Below, piece after piece: positions 40,897 to 55,394 of a stretch of 64,000 bases of DNA (position 1 is its first letter; every line of letters begins with the position of its first letter). A model generated the notes under the pieces. The model had not been told where the DNA came from. It saw only the letters and a program-made list of their open reading frames with translations, and did not search any database. The stretch is from Bacteroidota bacterium (GTDB taxonomy: Bacteria > Bacteroidota > Bacteroidia > UBA8524). Location: contig WGMZ01000018.1 of NCBI GenBank assembly GCA_016124735.1, forward strand, positions 1 to 64,000, read 5' to 3'. The position numbers were made by a program, and so were the translations under genes.

Positions 40897-42486
40897 TTAG
40901 TTAGCTGAGCGGGTTGCTTTTGGAGCAGCCGCTTTGATTTCGTCGGTCACGCCATCTTCGAATTGCGCGAAGTTTTTCACGAACAATTCTGCCAGATGAG
41001 CTGCTTTTGCATCGTAAGCTGAAGCGTCGGTCCAGGTATTTCTGGGATTCAATACCTCAGAAGGCACATCCGGGCAACTTACAGGTATTTCCAGACCAAA
41101 TACAGGAAGTTTTTCAAATTGTGCATTGTCGAGTTTTCCTTCAAGAGCAGCAGTAATCATAGCGCGTGTATAGCTCAGTTTCATGCGGCTGCCAACACCG
41201 TAAGGACCGCCGGTCCAGCCAGTGTTAATCAACCAAACTTTTGCTCCGCTTTCTCTCAGTTTATCGCCCAGCATTGCAGCGTACTTGCCAGGATGCAATG
41301 GAAGAAATGCTTTTCCGAAACATGCGGAGAAGGTAGCCTGAGGCTCGGTTACTCCTGCTTCTGTGCCAGCAACTTTTGCGGTATAACCACTGATGAAGTG
41401 ATACATTGCCTGCTCTGGAGTCAGGCGGGAAATTGGAGGCAACACGCCAAAGGCGTCAGCTGTGAGGAAGAAAATATTTTTAGGAGTATCTCCAACGGAA
41501 GGCATGGCGATATTGTCTACCAAATCAATCGGGTAGGCAGCGCGGGTGTTTTCGGTAACACTTACGTTGGTGTAATCTACGTCGCGGGTTCCGGGAACCA
41601 TCCGAACGTTTTCTACCAGTGCGCCGAAACGAATGGCATTGTAAATCTGAGGTTCTTTTTCCTGAGTCAGGTCAATGCATTTCGCATAGCAACCCCCTTC
41701 AAAGTTAAACACAGAACCGTCGGCCCATCCGTGCTCATCATCTCCGATTAATTTACGCGATGGATCGGCGGAAAGGGTTGTTTTTCCGGTTCCTGAAAGA
41801 CCAAAGAATATAGCGGTATCACCGTCTTTCCCAATATTGGCAGAACAGTGCATGCTCAATGTGTTGCGTTCGTGTGGGAGCACATAGTTCAACACTGAGA
41901 AAATTCCTTTTTTGATTTCGCCTGTATATCCGGTTCCTCCAATCAGGATGATTTTTTTGGTGAAATTAATGATTGCGAAATTGTGCTGACGTGTTCCGTC
42001 AACTTCCGGATTTGCACGGAAATTTGGTGCAGCCAGAATTAACCAGTCGTGTTGTTGGGTTTTGAGTTCCTCTGCAGTTGGACGGAGGAAAAGGTTATTG
42101 GAGAACAGGTTCTGATAGGCTGTTTCATTAATCACTTTGATGTTCAGTCTGAAGTTAGGATCTGCACATGCATAAGCGTCGCGAACGAATACTTCTTTGC
42201 CTTCGTAATGAGCAATTACTTTGTCCAGCAATTGATCAAACTTTTCACTTTCAAAACGGTTGTTAATGTCGCCCCACCAAACAGAATCTTTGGTGTTTTC
42301 GTCGTATACAACAAATTTGTCTTTTGGCGAGCGACCGGTAAATTCTCCCGTGTCCGCAGCCAAAGCTCCCGTATTGGTCAACTCACCTTCTCCGCGGAGA
42401 ATAGCTTGTTCAACCAGTTCGGCCGGAGATAAATTCAAGTGCGTTTTTGACGCGTTACTGATGATTTTTTCTACGATTGAATTCAT
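40897..42486 (-). CDS. pckA: Phosphoenolpyruvate carboxykinase (ATP)
   Basis: This 529-residue enzyme interconverts oxaloacetate plus ATP with PEP, CO2 and ADP at the branch between TCA cycle and gluconeogenesis. It shows the ATP-type family motifs: TGEFTGRSPKDKFVV, FFGLSGTGKTTLSAD (kinase P-loop, about residues 238-252), GDDEHGWADGSVFNFEGGCYAKCIDL, and FGALVENVRMVPGTRDVDY. The gene starts 26 bases after a TATTTTTG promoter element and ends in a strong terminator, so it is monocistronic. It lies next to the inorganic-carbon island and releases or fixes CO2, a possible metabolic link. Confidence 0.96.
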   Translation of the reverse strand: MNSIVEKIISNASKTHLNLSPAELVEQAILRGEGELTNTGALAADTGEFTGRSPKDKFVVYDENTKDSVWWGDINNRFESEKFDQLLDKVIAHYEGKEVFVRDAYACADPNFRLNIKVINETAYQNLFSNNLFLRPTAEELKTQQHDWLILAAPNFRANPEVDGTRQHNFAIINFTKKIILIGGTGYTGEIKKGIFSVLNYVLPHERNTLSMHCSANIGKDGDTAIFFGLSGTGKTTLSADPSRKLIGDDEHGWADGSVFNFEGGCYAKCIDLTQEKEPQIYNAIRFGALVENVRMVPGTRDVDYTNVSVTENTRAAYPIDLVDNIAMPSVGDTPKNIFFLTADAFGVLPPISRLTPEQAMYHFISGYTAKVAGTEAGVTEPQATFSACFGKAFLPLHPGKYAAMLGDKLRESGAKVWLINTGWTGGPYGVGSRMKLSYTRAMITAALEGKLDNAQFEKLPVFGLEIPVSCPDVPSEVLNPRNTWTDASAYDAKAAHLAELFVKNFAQFEDGVTDEIKAAAPKATRSAN

Positions 42487-42933: not shown

Positions 42934-44075
42934 TGATGGAGAGAGAACCGGGCCATTATTCGTCAGGTAATTCCATTGAGATTTATCGGGGTGGGAAGGC
43001 CTACTTTGATGTTCTTTTGGAAAGGCTGAATAAAGCCCGCGTTTTCATTCATATACAAGTTTATATTCTAGGCAAGGACCGTACTGGGTATGCAGTACTC
43101 GAAACGCTGTTTGCCGCTGCCAAACGGGGTGTTCCGGTATATCTAATGCTCGATGCTTATGGTAGCAGCTGGGTGAAGGCCCAGCACCTCATCCAATGGA
43201 AAAAGCAGGGCCTCAACGTGAAACTCTTTTCCCGTCGTCTGCGATTTAAACGATTGGTACTGGGAAGAAGACAGCATTCCAAACTTGTTGTAATCGACAA
43301 CGAATGGATGAGTGTTGGAGGATTGAATTTCGCAGATCGATACAGTGGTTTCGACGGAGCCGTACCTTGGTTGGATGCTGCTTGCTGGGTAAAAGGCCCG
43401 GCGGCCGCCCTGTTGAGTCAAACGGCCGCCGTTTATTGGCGGTCGAGGAAAGAACGCTTTTTGAGAAGTCAGCAGCCGCTTCCCGAATTGCCGGATGGAG
43501 AAGGGATTTGGGTTTTTACCAACGACTGGCTGAGAAGGAAGTTTGAGATCAGAAAAGCGTATCAGGACGCTATTGACGGGGCGAAAAATGAAATTATTCT
43601 AATTGCTGCCTATTTTTTTCCATCCAGAAAAATGCTGCGATTGCTTTTGCAGAAAGCATCGGAAGGAGTTAGGATTACGCTGCTTTTTAGCGCAGTAAGC
43701 GATGTGCCATTGGTGAAACCTGCAACGGAATATTTCTATCACAAGCTCCGAACCGCTGGGATTGAAATACGCGAATGGGATGAAAGTGTACTCCACGCAA
43801 AAATTGCCTGTATAGATCAGGAATGGGTAACCTTTGGCTCCTACAACCTCAACCAACTTAGCGATTTCGGAAGTTTGGAAACCAATATCGCCTTCGAATC
43901 CAAAGAAATGGCCAAACCATTCTATCAGCAGTTGATACAAACCATTTACCCAAGAACAAGGCAAATTGACACTGTTTCTCATCGAATGGGGAGCAGGCTA
44001 AAGAGATACTTTTCGTATCTTGCCCTGAGGATTGCGCTCAGAATTCTCTTTCTGACCAATCACCCCCCTCGCTGA
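42933..44075 (+). CDS. Phospholipase D/cardiolipin synthase-like enzyme
   Basis: This 380-residue protein has two HKD phosphatidyl-transfer motifs: His115-Lys117-Asp122 in HSKLVVIDNEWMSVGGLNF and His288-Lys290-Asp295 in HAKIACIDQEWVTFGSYNL. It resembles ClsB-type cardiolipin synthases, which lack N-terminal membrane helices. Here a hydrophobic C-terminal stretch (FSYLALRIALRILFL) may dip into the membrane. It would condense or exchange phosphatidyl groups in inner-membrane lipids. It is coupled on both sides: TGATG from the preceding gene, and TGATG into the SulP gene. This genetic link between lipid synthesis and an anion transporter is unusual. Confidence 0.88.
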   Translation: MMEREPGHYSSGNSIEIYRGGKAYFDVLLERLNKARVFIHIQVYILGKDRTGYAVLETLFAAAKRGVPVYLMLDAYGSSWVKAQHLIQWKKQGLNVKLFSRRLRFKRLVLGRRQHSKLVVIDNEWMSVGGLNFADRYSGFDGAVPWLDAACWVKGPAAALLSQTAAVYWRSRKERFLRSQQPLPELPDGEGIWVFTNDWLRRKFEIRKAYQDAIDGAKNEIILIAAYFFPSRKMLRLLLQKASEGVRITLLFSAVSDVPLVKPATEYFYHKLRTAGIEIREWDESVLHAKIACIDQEWVTFGSYNLNQLSDFGSLETNIAFESKEMAKPFYQQLIQTIYPRTRQIDTVSHRMGSRLKRYFSYLALRIALRILFLTNHPPR

Positions 44076-45688
44076 TGTTTAAAACATTAAAAGAAGATTT
44101 ACCCGCCTCTCTGGTCGTTTATCTTGTTGCGCTTCCTCTCTGCTTAGGAATCGCTATTGCCTCGGATGCACCTTTGTTTTCCGGGATGATAGCCGGAATA
44201 GTGGGCGGCATCATTGTCGGTTCTTTGAGCGGCAGCCATCTCAGTGTAAGCGGCCCGGCTGCTGGCCTTGCAGTAGTGGTGGTGAGCTCTTTGAAGCGGT
44301 TTGGAAAGATCGTGGAAGATGACAGGCTTCTGGCAGAACCCATTGGCTACGAAGGGGAATTTGAACTGTTTCTGTTGAGTGTGCTCCTTGCAGGCATGCT
44401 TCAATTAATATTTGGATTGATTCGGGCGGGAGGAATTAGCAATTACATCCCCAGCTCGGTCATCAAAGGGATGCTGGCAGCTATTGGCCTCATCTTAATT
44501 TTTAAGCAAATTCCTCATGCACTGGGAATCGATACCGATTTTGAAGGAGATGAATCTTTTGAGCAGGCAGACGGAGAAAATACCCTTTCCGAACTATGGC
44601 ATTCCGTTCTGGATTTTGAACCCGGAGCATTAATGATTTCATTGCTTGCCGGTGTCATCATCTTGTTCTGGGCAAAAAAGTCTTTAAAGAAATACAGCTT
44701 CATTAAATTGGTACCTGGTGCCTTGATTGCAGTTTTGTCAGGAACCCTGATTAATCTGGCATTGCGGGAATGGTATCCTGAATGGGCATTACAAGGATCG
44801 CACCTGGTTGATCTTCCCTTGGATTCGGTCAGGGGGAACCCACTGAACCTGATAACTCTTCCAGATTGGAATGGCTTGAGGCTTCCGATAACCTATGAGA
44901 TCGCCTTTCTCATTGCGGTTATAGCTTCGATTGAGTCCTTATTGAGTTTGGAAGCAGTAGATAAGCTCGACCCTCAAAGAAGAATTTCTCCTCCGAATAG
45001 GGAATTAAAAGCGCAGGGCATCGGAAACATAGTCAGCGGATTAATTGGCGGCCTGCCATTAACTGCTGTAATCGTGAGGAGCTCGGCCAATACTGTTGCA
45101 GGCGCAAAATCGCGCTTATCTGCCATCGTACATGGAATTTTACTATTGCTTTCTGTCTTGTTTATCCCGCATGTACTCAACCTGATTCCAAAGGCAGCTT
45201 TGGCTGCTGTGCTGATCCTTGTAGGATATAAATTGGTGAGTTGGGAAGTGGTTCAGGCCAATTACCGGAAAGGGATCAATCAGTTTATTCCGTTCGTGGT
45301 AACCATCGTTGCCATTTTGATGACCGACCTTCTGAAAGGCATTGGAATCGGTATTCTGGTCGGGATCTTCTTTGTGATCCGTTCCAATTTTAATAAGGGG
45401 ATTACCTATGTAGTAGATGAAGGCCGACATATGATTCGACTGCGGAGCAGCGTGAATTATCTGAATAAAGGGGTGCTCAGTAAGATTTTCGAACAGATGC
45501 CGAAAGGAGCTGAAGTGTGGATTGATGGAGCGGATGCCCAGTTTATCGATCCGGATATTTATGAATTATTGGATGACTTTATTCGCTCCGCTTCAGAAAA
45601 AGACATCCAAATCGAAATCATCCGCAAAAAAAACAGTTACAACAAGTATTTTAAGGCGGAAGGTGTCAAATTTGCAAGCGAACTATGA
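44075..45688 (+). CDS. SulP-family anion transporter, probable bicarbonate transporter
   Basis: This 537-residue inner-membrane protein of the SLC26/SulP family has about twelve to fourteen transmembrane segments. Signatures are the Pro-rich opening ALPLCLGIAIASDAPLFSGM, GSLSGSHLSVSGPAAGLAV, and IESLLSLEAVDKLDPQRRISPPNRELKAQG. A C-terminal STAS-like domain (about 450-537) carries VWIDGADAQFIDPD. The family moves sulfate, bicarbonate and other anions. Bicarbonate is inferred because a beta-carbonic anhydrase gene overlaps its stop by ATGA and dabAB follows. The proteobacterial and cyanobacterial BicA clade has the same context logic but sequence alone does not prove substrate. Confidence 0.88.
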   Translation: MFKTLKEDLPASLVVYLVALPLCLGIAIASDAPLFSGMIAGIVGGIIVGSLSGSHLSVSGPAAGLAVVVVSSLKRFGKIVEDDRLLAEPIGYEGEFELFLLSVLLAGMLQLIFGLIRAGGISNYIPSSVIKGMLAAIGLILIFKQIPHALGIDTDFEGDESFEQADGENTLSELWHSVLDFEPGALMISLLAGVIILFWAKKSLKKYSFIKLVPGALIAVLSGTLINLALREWYPEWALQGSHLVDLPLDSVRGNPLNLITLPDWNGLRLPITYEIAFLIAVIASIESLLSLEAVDKLDPQRRISPPNRELKAQGIGNIVSGLIGGLPLTAVIVRSSANTVAGAKSRLSAIVHGILLLLSVLFIPHVLNLIPKAALAAVLILVGYKLVSWEVVQANYRKGINQFIPFVVTIVAILMTDLLKGIGIGILVGIFFVIRSNFNKGITYVVDEGRHMIRLRSSVNYLNKGVLSKIFEQMPKGAEVWIDGADAQFIDPDIYELLDDFIRSASEKDIQIEIIRKKNSYNKYFKAEGVKFASEL

Positions 45689-46314
45689 AGTCATACGAAC
45701 AATTACTGCTGGCCAACAAGGCCTGGGCAAAAGAAAAGACAGAAACTAATCCTGACTTTTTCCCAAATCTGGCGAAAGGGCAAAGCCCGCGTTTCTTATG
45801 GATCGGCTGCAGCGACAGTCGGGTTCCGGCCGACATGATTACCGGTACGGAACCGGGAGAAATCTTTGTACATCGGAATGTGGCGAATATGGTTGTTCAT
45901 ACCGACCTGAACCTGTTATCCGTGCTGCAATATGCAGTAGAGGTGTTGAAAGTAAATCATGTGATGGTGGTGGGGCACTACGGCTGTGGCGGTGTGCGCG
46001 CTTCCATGCAAAAGAGTCATCTCGGGTTGATCGATAAATGGCTTTTAAATATCAGAGAGGTCTACCGCATGAACCGTGCTGAGTTGGATGGAATGGAGAG
46101 CGAAGACAGTCGCGCCGACCGACTCGTGGAACTCAATGTAAAAGAGCAGGTATTTAATCTCGCGAAAACATCCATCATCCAAAAAGCCTGGGCCGAAAGG
46201 CAGGCGCCGCTGATCCATGGCTGGGTATATGGAATGGAAGATGGCGTGTTAAAAGACTTGGTGCGCTTCGACCACACAACCGAGCTGGATCCGGTTTTCA
46301 GCTACGGCTTCTAA
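45685..46314 (+). CDS. Beta-class carbonic anhydrase, SulP-coupled
   Basis: This 209-residue zinc enzyme interconverts CO2 and bicarbonate. The zinc and catalytic residues are Cys42, Asp44 and Arg46 in CSDSR, then His98 and Cys101 in GHYGCGG. The substrate-side segment FVHRNVANMV is standard. No signal peptide is visible, so it is cytosolic. It overlaps the SulP stop by ATGA, so both are made in fixed proportion, an arrangement seen for SulP-anhydrase bicarbonate pairs in other bacteria. Compare the second enzyme at 51583. Confidence 0.95.
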   Translation: MKSYEQLLLANKAWAKEKTETNPDFFPNLAKGQSPRFLWIGCSDSRVPADMITGTEPGEIFVHRNVANMVVHTDLNLLSVLQYAVEVLKVNHVMVVGHYGCGGVRASMQKSHLGLIDKWLLNIREVYRMNRAELDGMESEDSRADRLVELNVKEQVFNLAKTSIIQKAWAERQAPLIHGWVYGMEDGVLKDLVRFDHTTELDPVFSYGF

Positions 46315-46495
46315 GCAAAAACACGTTGTTTCATTCGTGGGTTGGCCGAACCTTTTCTTGCCTCTGCGTGAATAATTCACCTGCGACCATAAAATGGATC
46401 AGAGTTTCCAGAAAGGAACTTGTTTGAAAACGGAAAGTCTTGTAAATATATTTTTCAGGAACTGTCTTACAGTGTTTAAACTCCTTCCAAAGAGG

Positions 46496-46503
46496 TAAAT
46501 TTG
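46496..46503 (+). promoter_or_regulatory. Promoter -7 element of dabAB
   Basis: TAAATTTG is a perfect TAnnTTTG match. It overlaps the in-frame TTG at 46501, so that TTG cannot be the real start. The ATG at 46522 is 19 bases after the element. Confidence 0.55.
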
Positions 46504-46521
46504 TCACCTTATCATCCATGC

Positions 46522-49008
46522 ATGGGAAGCGGCATTTTTAACGAAGAATCTACCCTTGGATTGCTTCGAAAATATCTTCCGGAGCAATTGCCTCTGAAAG
46601 ATTTTGTCCATCATAATACATTACACGCTTTTCAGGATCTTTCCTTTTTTGAGGCAATGAAAGAGTCCGCGGAAATGTTTGGCTATCAGACATTGCCAGG
46701 ACTGCATGAATACCGAGGTTGGTTTAAATCCGGTAAAATCAAGGAACAGAACCTGGACAAGGTATTGGCCAATAGTGGGGAGCAGGAAGAAATTAATTCC
46801 CTGAAAAGCCGCCTGCTGAATGAGAATCTTACACAGGAATTTGTCGGTAAAACAGGAGCTTTGAGGCAAGGCTGGAAAAAGCTGGCTAAGGTGAATTTGG
46901 ACAGGCAGGTACATCCGGCGTTATTCCGGGTTCTTGGGGCCTATTTGGACCAGGGCATATCAATCTGGAAATTTCCCGACAGACATCTTTCTTTTCTTGA
47001 GGCCATTCGTAAACTGGAGCATGATGCCCATTGGGGCCTGTTCAGAAGTCCGCGTGTTAAAAACATGCTCGCCGAAAACAAATTCAGCATGGAAGGCCTG
47101 TTGGATATTTTGGTGGCAGATCCCACCTTGTACGAGGATTATCTAATGGATATACTCTTTTCGCATCCGGGTTGGAGCGGCATGGTGAGTGTTTTGGAGG
47201 AGAAACCCCATTCTTTGCTTTATCCCAGAAGAATTTCTTTGAAGGAACTCATTCTTTTCGAATTGTTATTGGAGATTGATGCGTTGGACAGAAAGGGTGG
47301 AACGAATTGGAAGCCCCTGGGCACCTGGATTAAGGAAAAGGATTATCAGGTTCCGGAGCCGAAAGATCAAGGCGGCTTATTTAAGCAGCTCAGCTATTTC
47401 CAGGAAGCTATGGAATGGTCGTTTTTTGATGAAGTACTTTCAGGGATTTTGGTTACCCACAATAAGCAGGAGGTTCAGAAATCGACTCGATCTTTTCAGG
47501 CATTATTTTGTATCGATGATCGGGAATGTTCCTTGCGTCGTCATCTGGAAAATATAGAAACAGAGGCCAGTACCTATGGTACTGCAGGACATTTTAATCT
47601 AGACATGTATTTTCTGCCTGAAGGGGCTAAATACCTTACCAAGGTTTGTCCGGTTCCGGTCGAACCGAAACATATTATTCGCGAACATGCCCGGGTAAAT
47701 AAGAAACAGAAGGATGTGTTCCTTGAATCTGCTTCTCATGGGGCAGTTGGAGGCTGGGTCGCCGCTTCATTATTAGGTTTATGGTCGGGAGTGAAGATGA
47801 TGAAAAGTGTATTTGTCCCGTCGGAAAGTCCGGTGATGGTCAGCTCCTTCGAACACATGCATCCGGATGGCGAGATTGAGATTGATTTTCGGGGAGAGAC
47901 GGATAAAGCCGGCAACCGAATAGGCTTTACCTGGGATGAAATGGCAGATCGAATGGAAGCCTTATTGCTTGGTGTTGGAATCCGAACCCGTTTTGACTCC
48001 ATCATCTACCTGATTGCCCATGGATCGAGCAGCATCAATAACCCTTATTATTCTGGCTACGATTGCGGGGCCTGCAGTGGTCGACCTGGTTCTGCAAACA
48101 GCCGCGCAGCAGCGCAAATGCTGAATCATCCCGAAGTAAGAAACAGACTGAAGGCTCGCGGTATTCAGATTCCGGAAATCACCTGGTTCATTGCCGGATT
48201 ACATGATACCACCCGGGACGAAATCCATTTTTACGACACAGCTTGTATACCGGCTGCGCTGCAGGGAAGACATCAGGAAATTGAGGGTTCATTCCAAAAG
48301 GCGTTACTTAAAAATTCCAGGGAAAGGGCCCGTCGTTTCCGCAATGTGAAGCTTTCCTGGTCCGACAAAAGGATCCATCAAAAGGTTAAAACCCGCTCCT
48401 ATTCTTTGTTTGAGCCCAGGCCGGAATGGAACCATGCGAACAATGCTTTATGCCTGATTGGAAATCGGGGTAGCTTTAACCATTTGTTTCTCGACAGGAG
48501 GGCTTTCATGCATTCGTACGCTGCAGAAAAAGACCCTGACGCGAGTGTGCTGGCCAAAATATTGGAAACAGCTATTCCCGTATGCGGTGGGATAAATCTG
48601 GAATATTATTTTTCTACAGTAGACAATAACAGGCATGGCGCCGGATCTAAGTTGTCGCATAATATTGCCGGGCTAATCGGGGTGGTGAATGGCATCGATG
48701 GAGATCTGAGAACCGGACTGCCTGCTCAAATGGTCAATATTCATGAGCCACTTCGTATGCTGTTTGTTGTGGAGCAAAATCCGGATTTGGTTCTGAAAGC
48801 CCTTCAGTTAAAACCCCGGGTATTTCAGTGGGTCAGGAAAAATTGGGTTCATTGCGTGGCCTTTGATCGCAGAGAAGGTAAATTTTACCGAATAACGGAA
48901 GACGGATATAACCAGTATATCCCCGATGCCTCTTCCAGAACAATTCCGGCTAATAAAGACGTTTGGTACCAAATGGACGATTCATTGCCTATTCACCCTG
49001 TAAAGTAG
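46522..49008 (+). CDS. dabA: DabA, inorganic-carbon concentrating subunit (DUF2309)
   Basis: I start at ATG 46522 (MGSGIFNEE, about 828 residues), because the longer TTG start at 46501 lies inside the promoter element. DabA is a peripheral carbonic-anhydrase-like protein that, with the DabB proton channel, hydrates CO2 in one direction and builds up bicarbonate using the proton gradient. The zinc-site residues of the family are present. Counted from the TTG frame they are Cys337 and Asp339 in CIDDREC, His507 in AHGSSS and Cys522 in YDCGACSG. The spacing is nearly that of the characterised Halothiobacillus enzyme (Cys351, Asp353, His524, Cys539). The C-terminal NWVHCVAFDRREGKFYRIT is also typical. 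dabB follows by four bases. Confidence 0.95.
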   Translation: MGSGIFNEESTLGLLRKYLPEQLPLKDFVHHNTLHAFQDLSFFEAMKESAEMFGYQTLPGLHEYRGWFKSGKIKEQNLDKVLANSGEQEEINSLKSRLLNENLTQEFVGKTGALRQGWKKLAKVNLDRQVHPALFRVLGAYLDQGISIWKFPDRHLSFLEAIRKLEHDAHWGLFRSPRVKNMLAENKFSMEGLLDILVADPTLYEDYLMDILFSHPGWSGMVSVLEEKPHSLLYPRRISLKELILFELLLEIDALDRKGGTNWKPLGTWIKEKDYQVPEPKDQGGLFKQLSYFQEAMEWSFFDEVLSGILVTHNKQEVQKSTRSFQALFCIDDRECSLRRHLENIETEASTYGTAGHFNLDMYFLPEGAKYLTKVCPVPVEPKHIIREHARVNKKQKDVFLESASHGAVGGWVAASLLGLWSGVKMMKSVFVPSESPVMVSSFEHMHPDGEIEIDFRGETDKAGNRIGFTWDEMADRMEALLLGVGIRTRFDSIIYLIAHGSSSINNPYYSGYDCGACSGRPGSANSRAAAQMLNHPEVRNRLKARGIQIPEITWFIAGLHDTTRDEIHFYDTACIPAALQGRHQEIEGSFQKALLKNSRERARRFRNVKLSWSDKRIHQKVKTRSYSLFEPRPEWNHANNALCLIGNRGSFNHLFLDRRAFMHSYAAEKDPDASVLAKILETAIPVCGGINLEYYFSTVDNNRHGAGSKLSHNIAGLIGVVNGIDGDLRTGLPAQMVNIHEPLRMLFVVEQNPDLVLKALQLKPRVFQWVRKNWVHCVAFDRREGKFYRITEDGYNQYIPDASSRTIPANKDVWYQMDDSLPIHPVK

Positions 49009-49012
49009 AACC

Positions 49013-50887
49013 ATGAACAGCAATAGTTTTATCATCGCTTTTGTTCTGATTCCACTTCTAAGCTTTGTGCTTTCGCTGGTTCTTCCGGCACGAAAAGAAA
49101 ATCTTATTTGGAAGTTCAGTTTTGCTTCGGTACTCATTCAGGGAATTGCTTTAGTGTCCTTCACGTTTTATTGGGGAGGGAATGGTTTTGTTCCCATGAA
49201 TTTTTCAGAATGGACGCTCTATCAATCCACTGAATACAAATTTGTCATCGATTTTTATTTTGATGCAATTACTGTGGTATATCTCCTGGTCGGGGCAATG
49301 GTAAGTTTACTGGTTATCAAATTCAGCGGGTATTATCTGCATCGGGAAGCAGGGTTTAAAAGATTTTTTAATACCATTCTCTTTTTTGAACTTGCCTATC
49401 AGTTTACGGTGCTTTCCGGGAATTTTGAAACCCTCATTATGGGTTGGGAAATGCTGGGGATTTCATCTTTCATCTTGATTGCATTCTACCGGGACAGATA
49501 CCTTCCGGTTCGGAATTCAATTAAGGTGTTTTCTATCTATAGAATCGGAGATATTGGATTGATACTGGCTCTTTGGGGAATGCATCATCTATGGCATCAA
49601 AATGTATTTTTTCTTGAATTGAGAGGGTTTGGTGAGGTGGAACATCATATTGCAAATCAACCGGCATTTTCCTATTTCGTTGCGTTAAGCATTTTGATGG
49701 CGGCATCGGCTAAATCGGCCATTCTTCCATTTTCTTCCTGGTTACCCAGAGCGATGGAAGGTCCAACCTCTTCATCTGCCATTTTTTATGGCGCTTTATC
49801 TGTTCATTTCGGTATTTTTCTGCTGCTGCGCACTTCAATATTCTGGTTTCATTTGGATGGAATTCGTTGGCTTTTGGCAGCATTGGGAACAGCTAGCGCT
49901 GCAATAGCCTTCCTCATTTCCAGGGTGCAGTTTACCATCAAGGCAAAAGTGGCCTATGCATCCATCACCCAGATTGGAATCATGTGCGTGGAATTAGCTC
50001 TTGGATGGAATACTTTAGTTTTAATTCACTTCGTGGGGAATGCTTTTCTTCGAACTTATCAGCTATTGGTGTCTCCATCGATTGTCAATTACATGGTAAG
50101 GCAACAAACCTATTCAGAGGGAAAAGCAACGCGCCCTTCCTTTTTTAATTATGGCCATTTGGCGAATTCATTTTACCTGCTGGCACTGAAGGAATGGAAT
50201 CTGGATGCATTTTTTAACCGGCTTATATTTAGAAATGTTAAACAATTTGGAAAAAGGCTGGATTTCTTCACCCCTTTTAATGTGGTGTTTATCTTACTGC
50301 CTTTTTATCTTATAGCCCTTCTTCTCTATTATTATCGTGCAACACTTCCCGACACTTTGGTTTCATGGATGCCCGAAATACTGGGCGTGGTAGCTTTGTT
50401 AATGGTGTTCAAGGCATTTTCTGAGCGGATCTATCCACGTTTGGCTTTTGGTATGGTTCTGTTGGCGCACTTCTGGACTTATCTGTCCATTTCTTTTAAT
50501 CATGAATTGAGTGCGTTGCAAATGCAGTTTTATTTTGGAGGGGTTCTTTTTGGTGGGGCAATCGGACTGCTTGTCTTAAATCGTTTGCGAATGAAAGAAA
50601 GGGCCTTTTTTGACCTGAACAATTATTATGGGCATGTCGACGAATATCCAGGCTTGGCCCGTTGGTACTTGATTTCGGTGCTTTGTGTGATGGGATTCCC
50701 AATTACCAGCACTTTTATTGGAGAAGATTTATTGTTCAGTAACATTTACAGGAATCAATTTGTGTTGGCCGTTATACATTCGCTGATTTATATCTTCGGT
50801 GGTATAGCTTTAATAAGGTCCTTTGCCAGACTATTCTGGGGTCCCAATTTGAAGCCGTATTTTTCCAAAGCATTGAAATCAGCCTGA
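49013..50887 (+). CDS. dabB: DabB, NuoL-like proton-conducting membrane subunit
   Basis: This 624-residue protein has about fourteen transmembrane helices of the NuoL/MrpA-type antiporter family. GWEMLGISSFILIAFYRDR (about 143-161) carries the conserved glutamate, and SAKSAILPFSSWLPRAMEGP (about 231-250) carries conserved lysine. It is often misannotated as a NADH dehydrogenase subunit. Here no other nuo gene is nearby and dabA precedes it by four bases, so it is the membrane half of the Dab system. Its role is to let protons flow inward to drive CO2 hydration by DabA. Confidence 0.93.
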   Translation: MNSNSFIIAFVLIPLLSFVLSLVLPARKENLIWKFSFASVLIQGIALVSFTFYWGGNGFVPMNFSEWTLYQSTEYKFVIDFYFDAITVVYLLVGAMVSLLVIKFSGYYLHREAGFKRFFNTILFFELAYQFTVLSGNFETLIMGWEMLGISSFILIAFYRDRYLPVRNSIKVFSIYRIGDIGLILALWGMHHLWHQNVFFLELRGFGEVEHHIANQPAFSYFVALSILMAASAKSAILPFSSWLPRAMEGPTSSSAIFYGALSVHFGIFLLLRTSIFWFHLDGIRWLLAALGTASAAIAFLISRVQFTIKAKVAYASITQIGIMCVELALGWNTLVLIHFVGNAFLRTYQLLVSPSIVNYMVRQQTYSEGKATRPSFFNYGHLANSFYLLALKEWNLDAFFNRLIFRNVKQFGKRLDFFTPFNVVFILLPFYLIALLLYYYRATLPDTLVSWMPEILGVVALLMVFKAFSERIYPRLAFGMVLLAHFWTYLSISFNHELSALQMQFYFGGVLFGGAIGLLVLNRLRMKERAFFDLNNYYGHVDEYPGLARWYLISVLCVMGFPITSTFIGEDLLFSNIYRNQFVLAVIHSLIYIFGGIALIRSFARLFWGPNLKPYFSKALKSA

Positions 50888-50916
50888 TTTTGGTCCGACT
50901 CATTTTTTTGAAATGC

Positions 50917-50924
50917 TATATTTG
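50917..50924 (+). promoter_or_regulatory. Promoter -7 element of gpmA
   Basis: TATATTTG matches TAnnTTTG, 18 bases before the gpmA ATG. A TTTG lies 24 bases further upstream (50889-50892). Confidence 0.5.
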
Positions 50925-50941
50925 CGGCATAGTAGAAAATT

Positions 50942-51547
50942 ATGGCACAGTTAACTATTGTACGTCACGGACAGTCTGAGTGGAATTTGCAAAATCGATT
51001 CACCGGTTGGGAGGATGTTGCTTTAACAGAAAAAGGAATCGAAGAAGCGAAAGGAGCCGGCGTTCAATTGAAAGGCATGCATTTCGATGAAGCGTATACT
51101 TCCGATTTAAAGCGAGCGCAGGACACTCTGCAAATTATCCTGAAAGAATGCGGCATGGAAGGGATTCCGGTTACGCGCAATGAGGCCTTGAATGAACGTC
51201 ATTATGGTGATTTGCAAGGCTTGAATAAATCCGAAACAGCTGCCCAATACGGCGACGAGCAAGTGCATATTTGGAGAAGAAGTTACGATGTGGCTCCTCC
51301 CAATGGAGAGAGTTTGAAAGATACCGCCGCCAGGGTGCTTCCCTATTATGAGAAAGAAATAGAACCGAAGTTAAAGGCCGGCGAAAATATAATTATCGCG
51401 GCACATGGAAACAGCCTTCGTGCCTTAATCATGCACATAGAAAAGCTGAGTCCGGAGCAAATATTAAAAAGAGAGATTGGCACGGCCAAACCTATCACAT
51501 ACACGTTCGATTCGGAATTGAATGTTCTTGAAACCAAAGAATGGTAA
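50942..51547 (+). CDS. gpmA: 2,3-bisphosphoglycerate-dependent phosphoglycerate mutase
   Basis: This 201-residue protein has catalytic His9 in VRHGQSEWN, the glutamate in [13 protein letters not shown], and the second histidine in AAHGNSLRA. The length is between the usual 230-250-residue GpmA and shorter phosphoglycerate-mutase-like phosphatases. The [10 protein letters not shown] and substrate-binding segments are those of true GpmA, and some Bacteroidota versions are short. It interconverts 3- and 2-phosphoglycerate in glycolysis and gluconeogenesis. It lies between the dab and sbt units with its own promoter and terminator, so it may be an insertion in the island rather than a functional part. 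Confidence 0.92.
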
Positions 51548-51549
51548 AA

Positions 51550-51579
51550 GAAAAGGAGGTGAATTTCACCTCCTTTTTT
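51550..51579. terminator. Bidirectional terminator between gpmA and the second carbonic anhydrase
   Basis: AAAAGGAGGTGAA/TTTCACCTCCTTTTTT is a near-perfect inverted repeat with A-runs on one side and T-runs on the other. It lies directly between two convergent stop codons, so it can end both transcripts. Confidence 0.85.
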
Positions 51580-51582
51580 GTT

Positions 51583-52173
51583 TTATCCGGGGTATTTCAT
51601 GTCTTTCAATAGTCCATGCTTTAGGTCATAGACCCATCCGTGAACACTCGGCCGTATTTTCAGTTCATTGAAATCAGCACAATCGAGCAGTAACTCAACT
51701 TGCCGGCATTGTTCCATGACATTCCATTCAACCATTTTGTCCCAGCGCTCATTGAAATCTACAATGTGTACTAATTCACTTTCATGGGAATGAGCCACAT
51801 CTTTTATTCTTTTAAGCCAGGGATCCATGCATCCGAACGATTCTTCAGACAAAGCGGCTTTGATGCCTCCGCAGCGGTAATGGCCGCATACCACGATGTA
51901 TTTTACATTCAAATGCACGGCAGCGAAATACACCACTGATTTAATTCCTAATTCTTCGGGAACCACCTGGTTGGCAATATTCTTATACATAAAAACATGA
52001 CCCGGATCTAAGACCAAAAAATTATTGGGATGGACACGGCTATCTGAACAACCGATATAAAGGAATTCCGGATTTTGCTCAACCGATAAGCGCTGAAAAT
52101 ATTCAGGATCAGCTCCAGTTTTAAGAGCAGCCCAATGGGCGTTGTTTTCAAAAACCTGATTGTAAATTTCCAT
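51583..52173 (-). CDS. Beta-class carbonic anhydrase, sbt-linked
   Basis: This 196-residue enzyme has the catalytic set at the same positions as the first one: Cys42, Asp44, Arg46 (CSDSR) and His98, Cys101 (GHYRCGG). It differs around the substrate entrance (FMYKNIANQV instead of FVHRNVANMV) and in the C-terminal half, so the two are not a recent duplication. No signal peptide is visible, so it should be cytosolic. It is the last gene of the sbtA-sbtB-porin unit (62 bases after the porin stop). Having a separate enzyme for each transporter unit suggests distinct regulation. Confidence 0.95.
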   Translation of the reverse strand: MEIYNQVFENNAHWAALKTGADPEYFQRLSVEQNPEFLYIGCSDSRVHPNNFLVLDPGHVFMYKNIANQVVPEELGIKSVVYFAAVHLNVKYIVVCGHYRCGGIKAALSEESFGCMDPWLKRIKDVAHSHESELVHIVDFNERWDKMVEWNVMEQCRQVELLLDCADFNELKIRPSVHGWVYDLKHGLLKDMKYPG

Positions 52174-52235
52174 GTTGGAAGATGTTAAAGAAGCTCCCCG
52201 GTTCCAGGGAGCCTGAAGCGTTCAAACCGAGTGGA

Positions 52236-53567
52236 TCAGAAGCTGATTTGGTATTGTAAAACGGCCATAGATTTGCGTCCCTGATTGGTGATCTTACCAT
52301 TGCCGTCCGGATTAAATACCGGTCGGTTTTGGTAATTGAGAGAGAGCTTGGACCCATGACCGGCGATGAGCCAGTTAAGCCCTGCGTTGTAAACCATCAT
52401 GCTGCTGTTCAAACGATCATAATTTGCAAGAGTGATGTCTGCATACGGTTGTAAGGTCCCCTGCTTGCCAAGTAAATCATCTTTGCACTTATAGCCGGCC
52501 TGGGCATATATGATATTTCCGGTACCAATCATAGGAAAGGCATTGCCCTGGTTTCCTTTTTGAAACATTCCGGCAGCCACACCTGTTGCCGGGTTGTTTA
52601 CGCCTATATAGTGCAAATATCCAGGACCGAAATTATAGCTAAAAAAGCCTCCATAGAGAGTAATGGCTGTCTTCTTGTCCTTATTGAGAGGTGCATCGTA
52701 AAATACGTCTATGCCAATCAGAAGCATGTCGTGGTTGCTCACCCCACTGCTGTCTCCGCTGCGGGTTGCTCCTTTTTGATAGATGACACCGGCTCCGATA
52801 TTGAAAACGGTTTTATTGCCCAGATAGGTTCCCTGCGTGTATGGCGTGAGGTTGCTTTCCTCCTCTTTGAACTGGTACATGAAATAAGCCTGCTGCTGCA
52901 AATTCGGTTTACCGGGACGGAAGCTTGCGTATTGACTCAATGTGGTATCAACTCCGCCTACCAGACCACCGTTGATGGAAGTGTAAGAAGTATTCACGGG
53001 CATGGGATTGGTCAGTGCAATCCGGTAGTCCAGTTTGCCAAGTTTACCCTTCCCATACACACTGAATTTCCGAAGGAACTGATCGCTCACATCGTTCGTG
53101 GCCTGCAAAAAAAGCGGAGCATCCATGCACATAATCGTGCCAATCGAAGGAGAGGCATAACGCCCCAAGCCGCTCCATCCGGTAAGGCCGCCGCCAATGC
53201 TCAGGTTTCGCTTAATCACACTGTATTCTGTAATCGCATCATGAATAAACAAGCCCACCTTTCGGGCAGAAAGATAATTCAGGTTGTTTTGTCCGATTTG
53301 CGTATAAACAAAAACCCGGTCGTTGATTTGTCCGAATGCCTGAAAACGCAACCTTCGAATGCTCACGTCAAAAGTATTTGGGGCCGCATCTCCATAAACG
53401 GTAGTTCCCGGATTGCTTTGATTGTAGCGCAACCACACCTGGCTCATTCCGGTGAATTTTACATAATGAGTCCCATTTTCATTGAGATTGATGCGCAGGT
53501 CTTTGTTTTGAGCCATCAACCCGGCAGGCAGTGCAAAGAAGAATGCAAGGATTGCCAGGAGCCTCAT
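52236..53567 (-). CDS. Outer-membrane porin in the bicarbonate-uptake operon
   Basis: This 443-residue protein has a signal peptide (cleavage near LMAQN, residue 20) and a beta-barrel of the phosphate-selective porin O/P-like family. Signatures are FTGMSQVWLRYNQSNPG, the SIRRLRFQAFGQINDRVFVYTQIG segment and a closing MAVLQYQISF with terminal Phe. Its start overlaps the sbtB stop by ATGA, so it is translationally coupled to a bicarbonate regulator. The porin would give anions a path through the outer membrane. Bicarbonate is the obvious candidate, but substrate selectivity cannot be read from sequence. Confidence 0.82.
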   Translation of the reverse strand: MRLLAILAFFFALPAGLMAQNKDLRINLNENGTHYVKFTGMSQVWLRYNQSNPGTTVYGDAAPNTFDVSIRRLRFQAFGQINDRVFVYTQIGQNNLNYLSARKVGLFIHDAITEYSVIKRNLSIGGGLTGWSGLGRYASPSIGTIMCMDAPLFLQATNDVSDQFLRKFSVYGKGKLGKLDYRIALTNPMPVNTSYTSINGGLVGGVDTTLSQYASFRPGKPNLQQQAYFMYQFKEEESNLTPYTQGTYLGNKTVFNIGAGVIYQKGATRSGDSSGVSNHDMLLIGIDVFYDAPLNKDKKTAITLYGGFFSYNFGPGYLHYIGVNNPATGVAAGMFQKGNQGNAFPMIGTGNIIYAQAGYKCKDDLLGKQGTLQPYADITLANYDRLNSSMMVYNAGLNWLIAGHGSKLSLNYQNRPVFNPDGNGKITNQGRKSMAVLQYQISF

Positions 53568-53902
53568 TTTTGATCCTCCTCTCCATGGACATCAACATTG
53601 GTGGTTTCCAATACTTCGGTTATGATCATTGCACCACCACGGGTATTTAAAAATTTACTGAGGGCCGGTTTAAAATCGTCGAGCAGATTGGAAGAGAGGA
53701 TGGAAAACAAGTAAATGTTCTTGTTGGCAGGCATAAAGCTTTCTGCCCTTTGCTCTCCATGCCGCACTCCTTTGCTGCTGGTAATTTCCATTCCGGTATA
53801 ACCATGGATGCCGTGTTTTTCCATCAGTTCGACCAGGTCAATCATATAGATATAAGCCAAAATAATTTCCAGCTTGAGAATATTCGTTTTCATGTTTTTC
53901 AT
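53564..53902 (-). CDS. sbtB: SbtB-like PII-family regulator
   Basis: I take the start at 53902 (MKNMKTNI), with 53893 a close alternative. The longer upstream frame begins inside sbtA. The protein has about 112 residues with the PII fold: a T-loop region (HGYTGMEITSSKGVRHGEQR, about 38-57) and a C-terminal strand (AMIITEVLETTNVDV). SbtB binds adenine nucleotides, including cAMP, and modulates SbtA. The C-terminal CGPxGC redox loop of many cyanobacterial SbtB proteins is missing, so thiol control is unlikely. It starts 11 bases after the sbtA stop and overlaps the porin start. Confidence 0.85.
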   Translation of the reverse strand: MKNMKTNILKLEIILAYIYMIDLVELMEKHGIHGYTGMEITSSKGVRHGEQRAESFMPANKNIYLFSILSSNLLDDFKPALSKFLNTRGGAMIITEVLETTNVDVHGEEDQK

Positions 53903-53912
53903 TTTAATAAAA

Positions 53913-54893
53913 TTACCAAATAGCGTGTATGATTGCGTTGAACAGCGGAATTCCGAAGGCGATGTTGAAGGTGAAGGTGATGCCAAGCGACATGGGTAAA
54001 AGCAAACTCATATTTGCCTGCGGAACAGCCAATCGCATGGCTGCAGGCACAGCAATGTAAGAAGCGCTGGCAATAAGGATGGTTTGCAACAAAGCATCGC
54101 CGGGTTGTAAACCAACCGCATAACTGATCGCAATGCCAATCATGCCGGCGATAATAGGATAGCAAAGGGCAAAAACGGTAAGGAAAATACCTGAATTCCG
54201 AAGCTCTCTTAAACGACGACCTGCAAGGAGTCCCATATCGAGCATATACAGCGAAAGCATTCCTTTAAAAATATCGCTGATAAATGGTTTCAACTCCGCT
54301 TCTCCCGTATTACCGGTTAGCAGGCCAATGACCAGGCTACCCACGAGCAGAAGAACAGAGCCGTTGAATAATGCTTCTTTGAGAATCGGTCCCCATTTCA
54401 CTTTCGAATCTTCCTCTGCTTCACTTTCTTTGGCTATTTTACTGCGAATCAGGGTTAATCCGGATATAATCGCTGGCGATTCCATCAAAGCCATACCGGC
54501 TACCATGTAGCCACCAAAATTGATTTTATTGGCTTCAAGAAAAGAAGTCGCCGTTGCAAAAGTTACGGCGCTTATCGATCCATAAGTTCCTGCGATTGCA
54601 CCGGAATTGTAAACATCCAGTTTTCGGCGGAGAATGGGAAAAACAATAAATGGTATCAATGCAGAAGCGGAGATACAAACAATCACAACGGTGATTACCG
54701 TGCTGTTAAAACCGCTATGGAAGAGTTCATCTCCGCCTTTGAAGCCAATATCAAAGAGGAGATAGATACTTAAAAATTTAGCAATCTGAGGAGGAATTTC
54801 CAGATCAGATTTGACAAATACGGCAAGAATGCCGAGAAAGAAGAACAACACGGGTGGGTGCATAAAGTTCTCCAGAATCGCATGAAGATTCAT
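53913..54893 (-). CDS. sbtA: SbtA, sodium-dependent bicarbonate transporter
   Basis: This 326-residue inner-membrane protein of about ten transmembrane helices is of the DUF897/SbtA family. The signature is in the substrate site: NSGAIAGTYGSISAVTFATA (about 96-115) and MVAGMALMESPAIISGLTLI (about 129-148). The C-terminal half starts FISDIFKGMLSLYMLDMGLLAG. It takes up bicarbonate with sodium at high affinity. Although a classical cyanobacterial protein, relatives occur in many bacteria including Bacteroidota. It is the first gene of the operon sbtA-sbtB-porin-carbonic anhydrase. Confidence 0.93.
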   Translation of the reverse strand: MNLHAILENFMHPPVLFFFLGILAVFVKSDLEIPPQIAKFLSIYLLFDIGFKGGDELFHSGFNSTVITVVIVCISASALIPFIVFPILRRKLDVYNSGAIAGTYGSISAVTFATATSFLEANKINFGGYMVAGMALMESPAIISGLTLIRSKIAKESEAEEDSKVKWGPILKEALFNGSVLLLVGSLVIGLLTGNTGEAELKPFISDIFKGMLSLYMLDMGLLAGRRLRELRNSGIFLTVFALCYPIIAGMIGIAISYAVGLQPGDALLQTILIASASYIAVPAAMRLAVPQANMSLLLPMSLGITFTFNIAFGIPLFNAIIHAIW

Positions 54894-55013: not shown

Positions 55014-55394
55014 TTAGCAAAGCATGCCTGCTTTATCCAGGAGGCGGAGGGAATGAAACGACAGGATTCGTTTCGTGCAAAGAAAAGGAATGGAGCTTTT
55101 CCCAATGAATCGAAGAAGCTTACTGTTACAGGTCACATGCATGTTGAATCCCACAATTAAGTCGGGTTCGGCAAAAAGGTAACCACAAAGAAAAACGGGC
55201 CCATCGCCTTCTGCGCTTTCGTTGAGTTCATAGATGCTTTCCAGCTCTATTTCATCGCAATAAGATTTTTGTTTTTTAAACCCGTTGGCTTGTCCACTGG
55301 CAATGACCAGCGCCACGACCAAAAACAGCATGAGCAAGGCTTGCCGTTTGCGGATAACCAGGTATCTGCGCTTCGTTGGATTCAACTTGCTCAT
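55014..55394 (-). CDS. Hypothetical membrane-anchored protein
   Basis: This 126-residue protein has a Lys/Arg-rich N terminus, one transmembrane helix (about 19-36, ALLMLFLVVALVIASG), then an extracytoplasmic domain with cysteines. There is no family I recognise. It runs the same way as sbtA but 120 bases upstream of it and looks separate. Its composition is plausible for a real gene, but the absence of homology leaves it uncertain. Confidence 0.45.
   Translation of the reverse strand: MSKLNPTKRRYLVIRKRQALLMLFLVVALVIASGQANGFKKQKSYCDEIELESIYELNESAEGDGPVFLCGYLFAEPDLIVGFNMHVTCNSKLLRFIGKSSIPFLCTKRILSFHSLRLLDKAGMLC

Follow-up and report, generated by a model that had tools for sequence, protein, structure and literature searches.

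The sbtA–sbtB pair of cyanobacteria places a bicarbonate transporter of the Sbt_1 fold family next to a PII-like regulator; to our knowledge, this operon includes neither a dedicated porin nor a carbonic anhydrase (CA). The published descriptions that we consulted of two other types of inorganic-carbon (Ci) uptake system, DAB (DabA–DabB) and SulP/BicA, include no porin, and a literature search for a link between DabA (DUF2309) and porins returned nothing relevant. Here we analyse a 64,000-nucleotide stretch of a Bacteroidota genome (GCA_016124735.1, contig WGMZ01000018.1, positions 1–64,000; hereafter the window), in which the same adjacent pair, with the same transporter family and regulator fold, is followed by genes for an outer-membrane porin and a beta-CA. 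We find that this porin belongs to an uncharacterised family whose genes recur beside those of bicarbonate-type importers, which makes it a strong candidate for a bicarbonate pore. The four genes probably form a Ci uptake operon whose porin is a small-anion outer-membrane channel that normally partners a SulP-family permease of the SulP2 subfamily, often together with DabAB and CA, and in this species SulP2 would have been lost and SbtA–SbtB put in its place.

The sbtA–sbtB–porin–CA unit

Open reading frame (ORF) coordinates and profile searches place the four genes head to tail on the minus strand at 51583–54893, with the following features:

53913..54893, minus strand: sbtA, 326 amino acids (aa), Sbt_1 superfamily Na+-dependent bicarbonate transporter (PF05982, E = 7e-117)
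53564..53905, minus strand: sbtB, 113 aa, PII-like regulator, assigned by Foldseek with an AlphaFold2 model (predicted local distance difference test (pLDDT) 81)
53564..53567, minus strand: 4-base ATGA overlap of the sbtB stop and the porin start, read from the sequence
52236..53567, minus strand: porin, 443 aa, signal peptide and predicted 16-stranded beta-barrel with a terminal Phe (AlphaFold2, Foldseek)
52192..52213, minus strand: G+C-rich hairpin in the porin–CA gap, from strand folding (region z-score only -1.3)
51583..52173, minus strand: beta-CA, 196 aa, no signal peptide (PF00484, E = 4e-38)
51549..51579, either strand: strong bidirectional terminator-like hairpin between the CA gene and the convergent gpmA (z-scores -4.5 and -5.2)

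The sequence agrees with the original prediction that the sbtB stop overlaps the porin start and that the CA gene lies 62 bases beyond the porin; sbtA and sbtB are 7 bases apart. The terminator-like hairpin closes the unit at its CA end, and the four genes are probably co-transcribed. The hairpin in the porin–CA gap is a possible attenuator or processing site and might tune CA expression. A promoter scan gave sites no more numerous than in shuffled sequences.

The Sbt_1 domain of SbtA scores 390 bits against a curated cut-off of 27, and among solved structures the protein is closest to Synechocystis SbtA (7cye, E = 8e-27). The bicarbonate-binding residues of the Synechocystis protein are S114, Y140, S324 and S327 (PMC8352866), and S108 and S278 of the window SbtA correspond to S114 and S324, so that two of the four are kept; SASYIAVP or SASYIAAP is standard among Bacteroidota SbtA homologues. 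We propose, from the sequence, that the window SbtA takes up bicarbonate in a Na+-dependent manner. SbtB is predicted to adopt the PII ferredoxin-like fold, and its best Foldseek matches are the Thiomonas carboxysome-associated PII protein (CPII) with AMP, ADP or bicarbonate (1e-6), ahead of cyanobacterial SbtB (1e-5). The C-terminal CGPxGC motif of some SbtB proteins, which is not universal among them (PMC8352866), was not found in the window SbtB, which has no C-terminal cysteine. PII-like ORFs trail sbtA in other Bacteroidota too, and the window SbtB may bind nucleotides and inhibit or gate SbtA. The CA aligns with 1ddz (E = 8e-85), with matching Cys-Asp-Arg and His-X2-Cys motifs, and its Pro_CA domain carries the Cys-His-Cys zinc ligands and the Asp-Arg pair.

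The porin model, built from 103 homologues (pLDDT 92.1, predicted template modelling score 0.89), comprises an N-terminal helix followed by 16 main strands with a 36-residue loop 3 (130–165), and the chain ends in ...YQISF. The protein thus has the signal peptide, beta-barrel, terminal aromatic residue and long loop 3 of OprP/DcaP-type 16-stranded porins, and its Foldseek matches are OmpM1, OprP, OprO, OmpF and DcaP. At the sequence level, Pfam gave no family above cut-off, NCBIfam gave only ExtI (NF040900; 26.1 bits against a cut-off of 150) and a PDB sequence search gave chance matches only. The earlier caution that the porin can be identified at family level only is therefore justified, while its predicted fold is a confident beta-barrel. 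The gene is single copy in this genome. Its conserved basic residues, K37, R47, R72, R74, K167, K173, R182, K407 and R415, are assigned to the inward face by strand alternation only.

Genomic partners of the porin family

To place the porin among its relatives, we used a phylum sample of 396 genomes, with adjacency judged by coordinates, a sample of 100 relatives and 80 homologue loci from named genomes. The porin family occurs in 53 and an Sbt_1 protein in 90 of the 396 genomes; the two are adjacent only in the window's genome. Six of the 100 relatives carry both SbtA and a porin of the Ci-linked branch, side by side again only here. The search of other genomes for such an adjacency, which had been suggested, was made here with Sbt proteins; beyond the window's genome, it gave one further SbtA-adjacent porin (locus L278, metagenome-assembled genome nzgw121; SulP2–porin–SbtA). 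We therefore rejected a porin specific to SbtA. The original prediction had correctly called such a porin an unusual partner of SbtA; it had also held that finding the porin apart from sbt genes in most relatives would refute it, and almost all relatives do have the porin with no sbt gene nearby. A bicarbonate role is nonetheless not refuted, because the usual neighbour is another set of bicarbonate-type importers.

A Ci link was scored when a SulP, DabAB or Sbt gene lay within three genes of the porin on the same strand. By this measure 41 of the 80 named-genome loci are linked, with SulP2 as a neighbour in 36, DabB in 24, DabA in 20, another SulP in 5, CA in 3 and SbtA in 1. Linked loci number 51 overall (four came in twice), and in 46 of these SulP2 lies immediately 5′ of the porin or is separated from it by a single ORF of 174–178 aa; of the two such ORFs compared with Pro_CA, one matches clearly (L223:8315-8845, E = 2e-14) and the other weakly (L215:8376-8900, E = 0.004), and the second looks degenerate. 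In the 100 relatives, SulP2 and a Ci-branch porin are adjacent in all eight genomes that carry both, the porin directly following SulP2, usually with DabAB, and DabA co-occurs with the Ci-branch porin (9/25 versus 2/75, p = 4e-5). The chance expectation for SulP2–porin adjacency of this order is negligible. Close homologues in relatives sit in DabA–DabB–SulP2–porin or SulP2–porin–DabA–DabB clusters, and the association is kept across further orders: SulP2–CA–porin, SulP–CA–porin, porin–SulP–CA and SulP2–porin–SbtA. Ci-linked porins are found in the named, culturable genera Algoriphagus, Flavobacterium, Emticicia, Cyclobacterium and Fulvivirga. At G065:C14:13892-15688, SulP2 is followed immediately on its 3′ side by a short fragment that resembles the porin and is possibly a decaying porin gene.

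DabAB was considered as the core partner and rejected, since the gene next to the porin is that of SulP2, which also accompanies the porin where DabAB is missing. The presumed role of DabAB is CO2 hydration, and CO2 does not require a porin; the partner that is both meaningful and consistent is therefore a SulP or Sbt anion importer. One or the other is present in 50 of the 51 linked loci, and the sole exception has a masked stretch at that place. Of the dedicated coupling proposed originally, the tie to Ci uptake stands; the tie to SbtA does not, as the usual neighbour is SulP2.

Comparison with a congener (G001) suggests how the window's arrangement arose. The congener order is PLD–SulP–CA–DabA–DabB–SulP2–porin, with a 4-base overlap between SulP2 and the porin. 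The left half is the same in the window; after DabB comes gpmA and then the inverted CA–porin–SbtB–SbtA unit. SulP2 was not found in the window's genome and SbtA was not found in the congener, and the tree groups their porins as sisters (support 100/98); taken together, the porin stayed and the importer changed. SbtA is thus likely a recent substitute for SulP2 beside the porin. Replacement of one inner-membrane importer by another beside a retained porin supports the view that substrate is what links them.

The left half of the window's cluster and the ORF directly 5′ of sbtA comprise:

44075..45688, plus strand: SulP-family permease of a subfamily other than SulP2, overlapping the next CA gene (PF00916; phmmer to 5da0 and BicA 6ki1, E = 4e-21)
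45685..46314, plus strand: second beta-CA, with CGHYGCGG and CSDSR motifs
46501..49008, plus strand: DabA, start codon uncertain (PF10070, E = 2e-206)
49013..50887, plus strand: DabB-like proton-translocating subunit (PF00361/PF00662)
55014..55394, minus strand: hypothetical small protein, encoded immediately 5′ of sbtA, ranked first of 413 window ORFs with a small-protein hidden Markov model (E = 0.24)

Three Ci uptake sets (SulP–CA, DabAB and SbtAB–porin–CA) thus lie within about 11 kb (44075–54893) of a heterotroph, and a second DabA is encoded elsewhere in the genome, on contig C46. Small proteins of 110–145 aa are encoded directly 5′ of SulP2 or DabA at L050:11500-11835, L278:6854-7204 and about 30 other loci; they have a hydrophobic N terminus, an acidic middle and an aromatic/basic C terminus, and Pfam has no family for the three that we tested. 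The profile ranking is suggestive of a relationship between these proteins and the ORF at 55014–55394, no further than that.

Two porin branches and the candidate substrates

Homologues at 28–42% identity form a sister branch with different neighbours: in 37 of 40 branch rows, these are sodium:solute or MFS permeases, a CrbS/CrbR-like histidine kinase and response regulator, and acetyl-CoA synthetase. CrbS/R are described as acetate regulators (PMC5436829, PMC5715377). Most acetate-branch operons of the class also encode, 5′ of the porin, a zinc-ribbon/HTH protein of about 140 aa (L061:8242-8667 and equivalents), a possible regulator.

We compared 37 Ci-linked with 24 acetate-linked porin sequences. 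Common to both branches are R72, R74, R136, D149, D162 and R166, along with position 173 as K or R. The Ci-linked porins carry T39, Q76, Q90, Q155, N158 and K167 (the last in 37/37), and the acetate-linked porins I39, L76, H90, W155, I158 and Q, H or M at 167. Positions 155 and 158 are in loop 3, and strand alternation places 39, 76, 90 and 167 inward. A natural reading of these sequences is that an apolar pore surface would suit the methyl group of acetate and a polar one the hydroxyl of bicarbonate. It is possible, and we advance it tentatively, that the family comprises two substrate-tuned branches, one bicarbonate-selective and accompanying SulP2, DabAB or SbtAB, the other acetate-selective and accompanying acetate symporters, CrbS-like kinases and acetyl-CoA synthetase, with selectivity set at 39, 76, 90, 155, 158 and 167 by polar residues and an extra lysine versus apolar residues. 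If true, bicarbonate would for the first time have an identified outer-membrane route dedicated to it. The acetate-tied branch offers a natural control, and the residues that could be exchanged are few.

The same data bear on an alternative, in which the porin is an unselective channel for small monovalent anions (bicarbonate, acetate, formate and chloride) and is regulated together with the carboxylate-type importer, whichever it is, that has to be supplied. The acetate-type neighbours of the sister branch fit it, as do the basic residues that both branches share. So do three Emticicia loci (L229, L253 and L268), where a Ci-branch porin has a Ci set on one side and an acetate set on the other. 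These porins nevertheless keep the Ci residue pattern, and the lumen and loop-3 residues track neighbour type, separating the 37 and 24 sequences cleanly; we regard an unselective channel as unlikely, though it is the alternative that survives best. At the Emticicia loci, the acetate-type cluster after the porin is on the same strand and comprises the zinc-ribbon/HTH protein, an MFS permease, DUF6814 and the synthetase.

A second alternative is that the porin serves another SulP2 oxyanion, such as sulfate, and that its proximity to SbtA is incidental. SulP proteins include sulfate carriers, and among solved structures SulP2 matches a bacterial SLC26 'sulphate transporter' (5da0) best and BicA (6ki1) less well. 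Against this, DabAB, Sbt or a CA-like ORF is also present at most linked loci, an indication of inorganic carbon, and the species without SulP2 kept the porin beside SbtA, which leaves this alternative improbable. That an ordinary housekeeping porin lies beside SbtA by chance, as 39 orphans among 80 homologues and the near absence of SbtA linkage elsewhere might suggest, is very improbable given the eight-of-eight SulP2–porin adjacency in relatives and the 41/80 linkage, both far beyond chance, and given that Ci-side orphans mostly keep the Ci residue pattern.

Several observations weigh against a bicarbonate operon and its selective porin. Nearly half of the named-genome loci (39/80) have no Ci gene nearby, the SbtA–porin linkage is nearly unique to the window species, and bicarbonate is only a presumed substrate of the SulP or Sbt partner in Bacteroidota. 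The branch residue differences also reflect shared ancestry, and the lumen-facing positions come from strand alternation, not coordinates. In SbtA, the counterparts of Synechocystis Y140 and S327 are M134 and A281, so that two of the four binding residues are not kept, and the hairpin ahead of the CA gene may reduce co-transcription. We infer that the porin is selective for bicarbonate. 'Dedicated to bicarbonate' and 'one transcript', as originally worded, are inferences too: the homologues that stand alone make up about half, a sister branch serves acetate clusters, and a hairpin precedes the CA gene.

Proposed route and comparison with known systems

In the bicarbonate operon that we favour, bicarbonate would reach the periplasm via the barrel, where conserved arginines and lysines of the lumen would guide it, and SbtA would import it with Na+. 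SbtB would gate SbtA according to the adenylate state, and perhaps to bicarbonate itself. The cytosolic CA would then equilibrate HCO3- with CO2, supplying the carboxylases of a heterotroph. Autotrophy was rejected: no RuBisCO large subunit was found in this genome, while control searches gave matches. Light-driven use was also considered; proteorhodopsin gave no match in this genome, but control genomes gave none either. A phosphoenolpyruvate carboxykinase is encoded at 40897–42486, and a role in anaplerotic carbon incorporation has been proposed for the bicarbonate transporters and CA of Bacteroidota (PMC4148732); the imported bicarbonate may have such a metabolic use here.

Set against cyanobacterial sbtA–sbtB, the window differs in that its SbtB lacks CGPxGC and is closest to CPII, and in that its host is a heterotroph in which RuBisCO was not found. 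Thiomonas CPII, the best structural match of SbtB, is described in its PDB titles as binding AMP/ADP and bicarbonate; it is, however, carboxysome-associated, whereas there is no carboxysome or RuBisCO here, and the sequence match is not significant (E = 0.16). With the Pseudomonas phosphate and pyrophosphate porins OprP and OprO, the window porin shares 16 strands and conserved basic residues in the lumen, both predicted for the window protein. Identity to them is about 10%, with no sequence relationship found, and the genomic partners differ. ExtI, of selenite and tellurite reduction operons, is the only named porin model with a sequence signal and is likewise encoded with metabolic partners, but the window porin falls far below its cut-off and has no ext genes nearby. 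The DAB and SulP/BicA sets are the usual neighbours of the porin family and are also present in the window.

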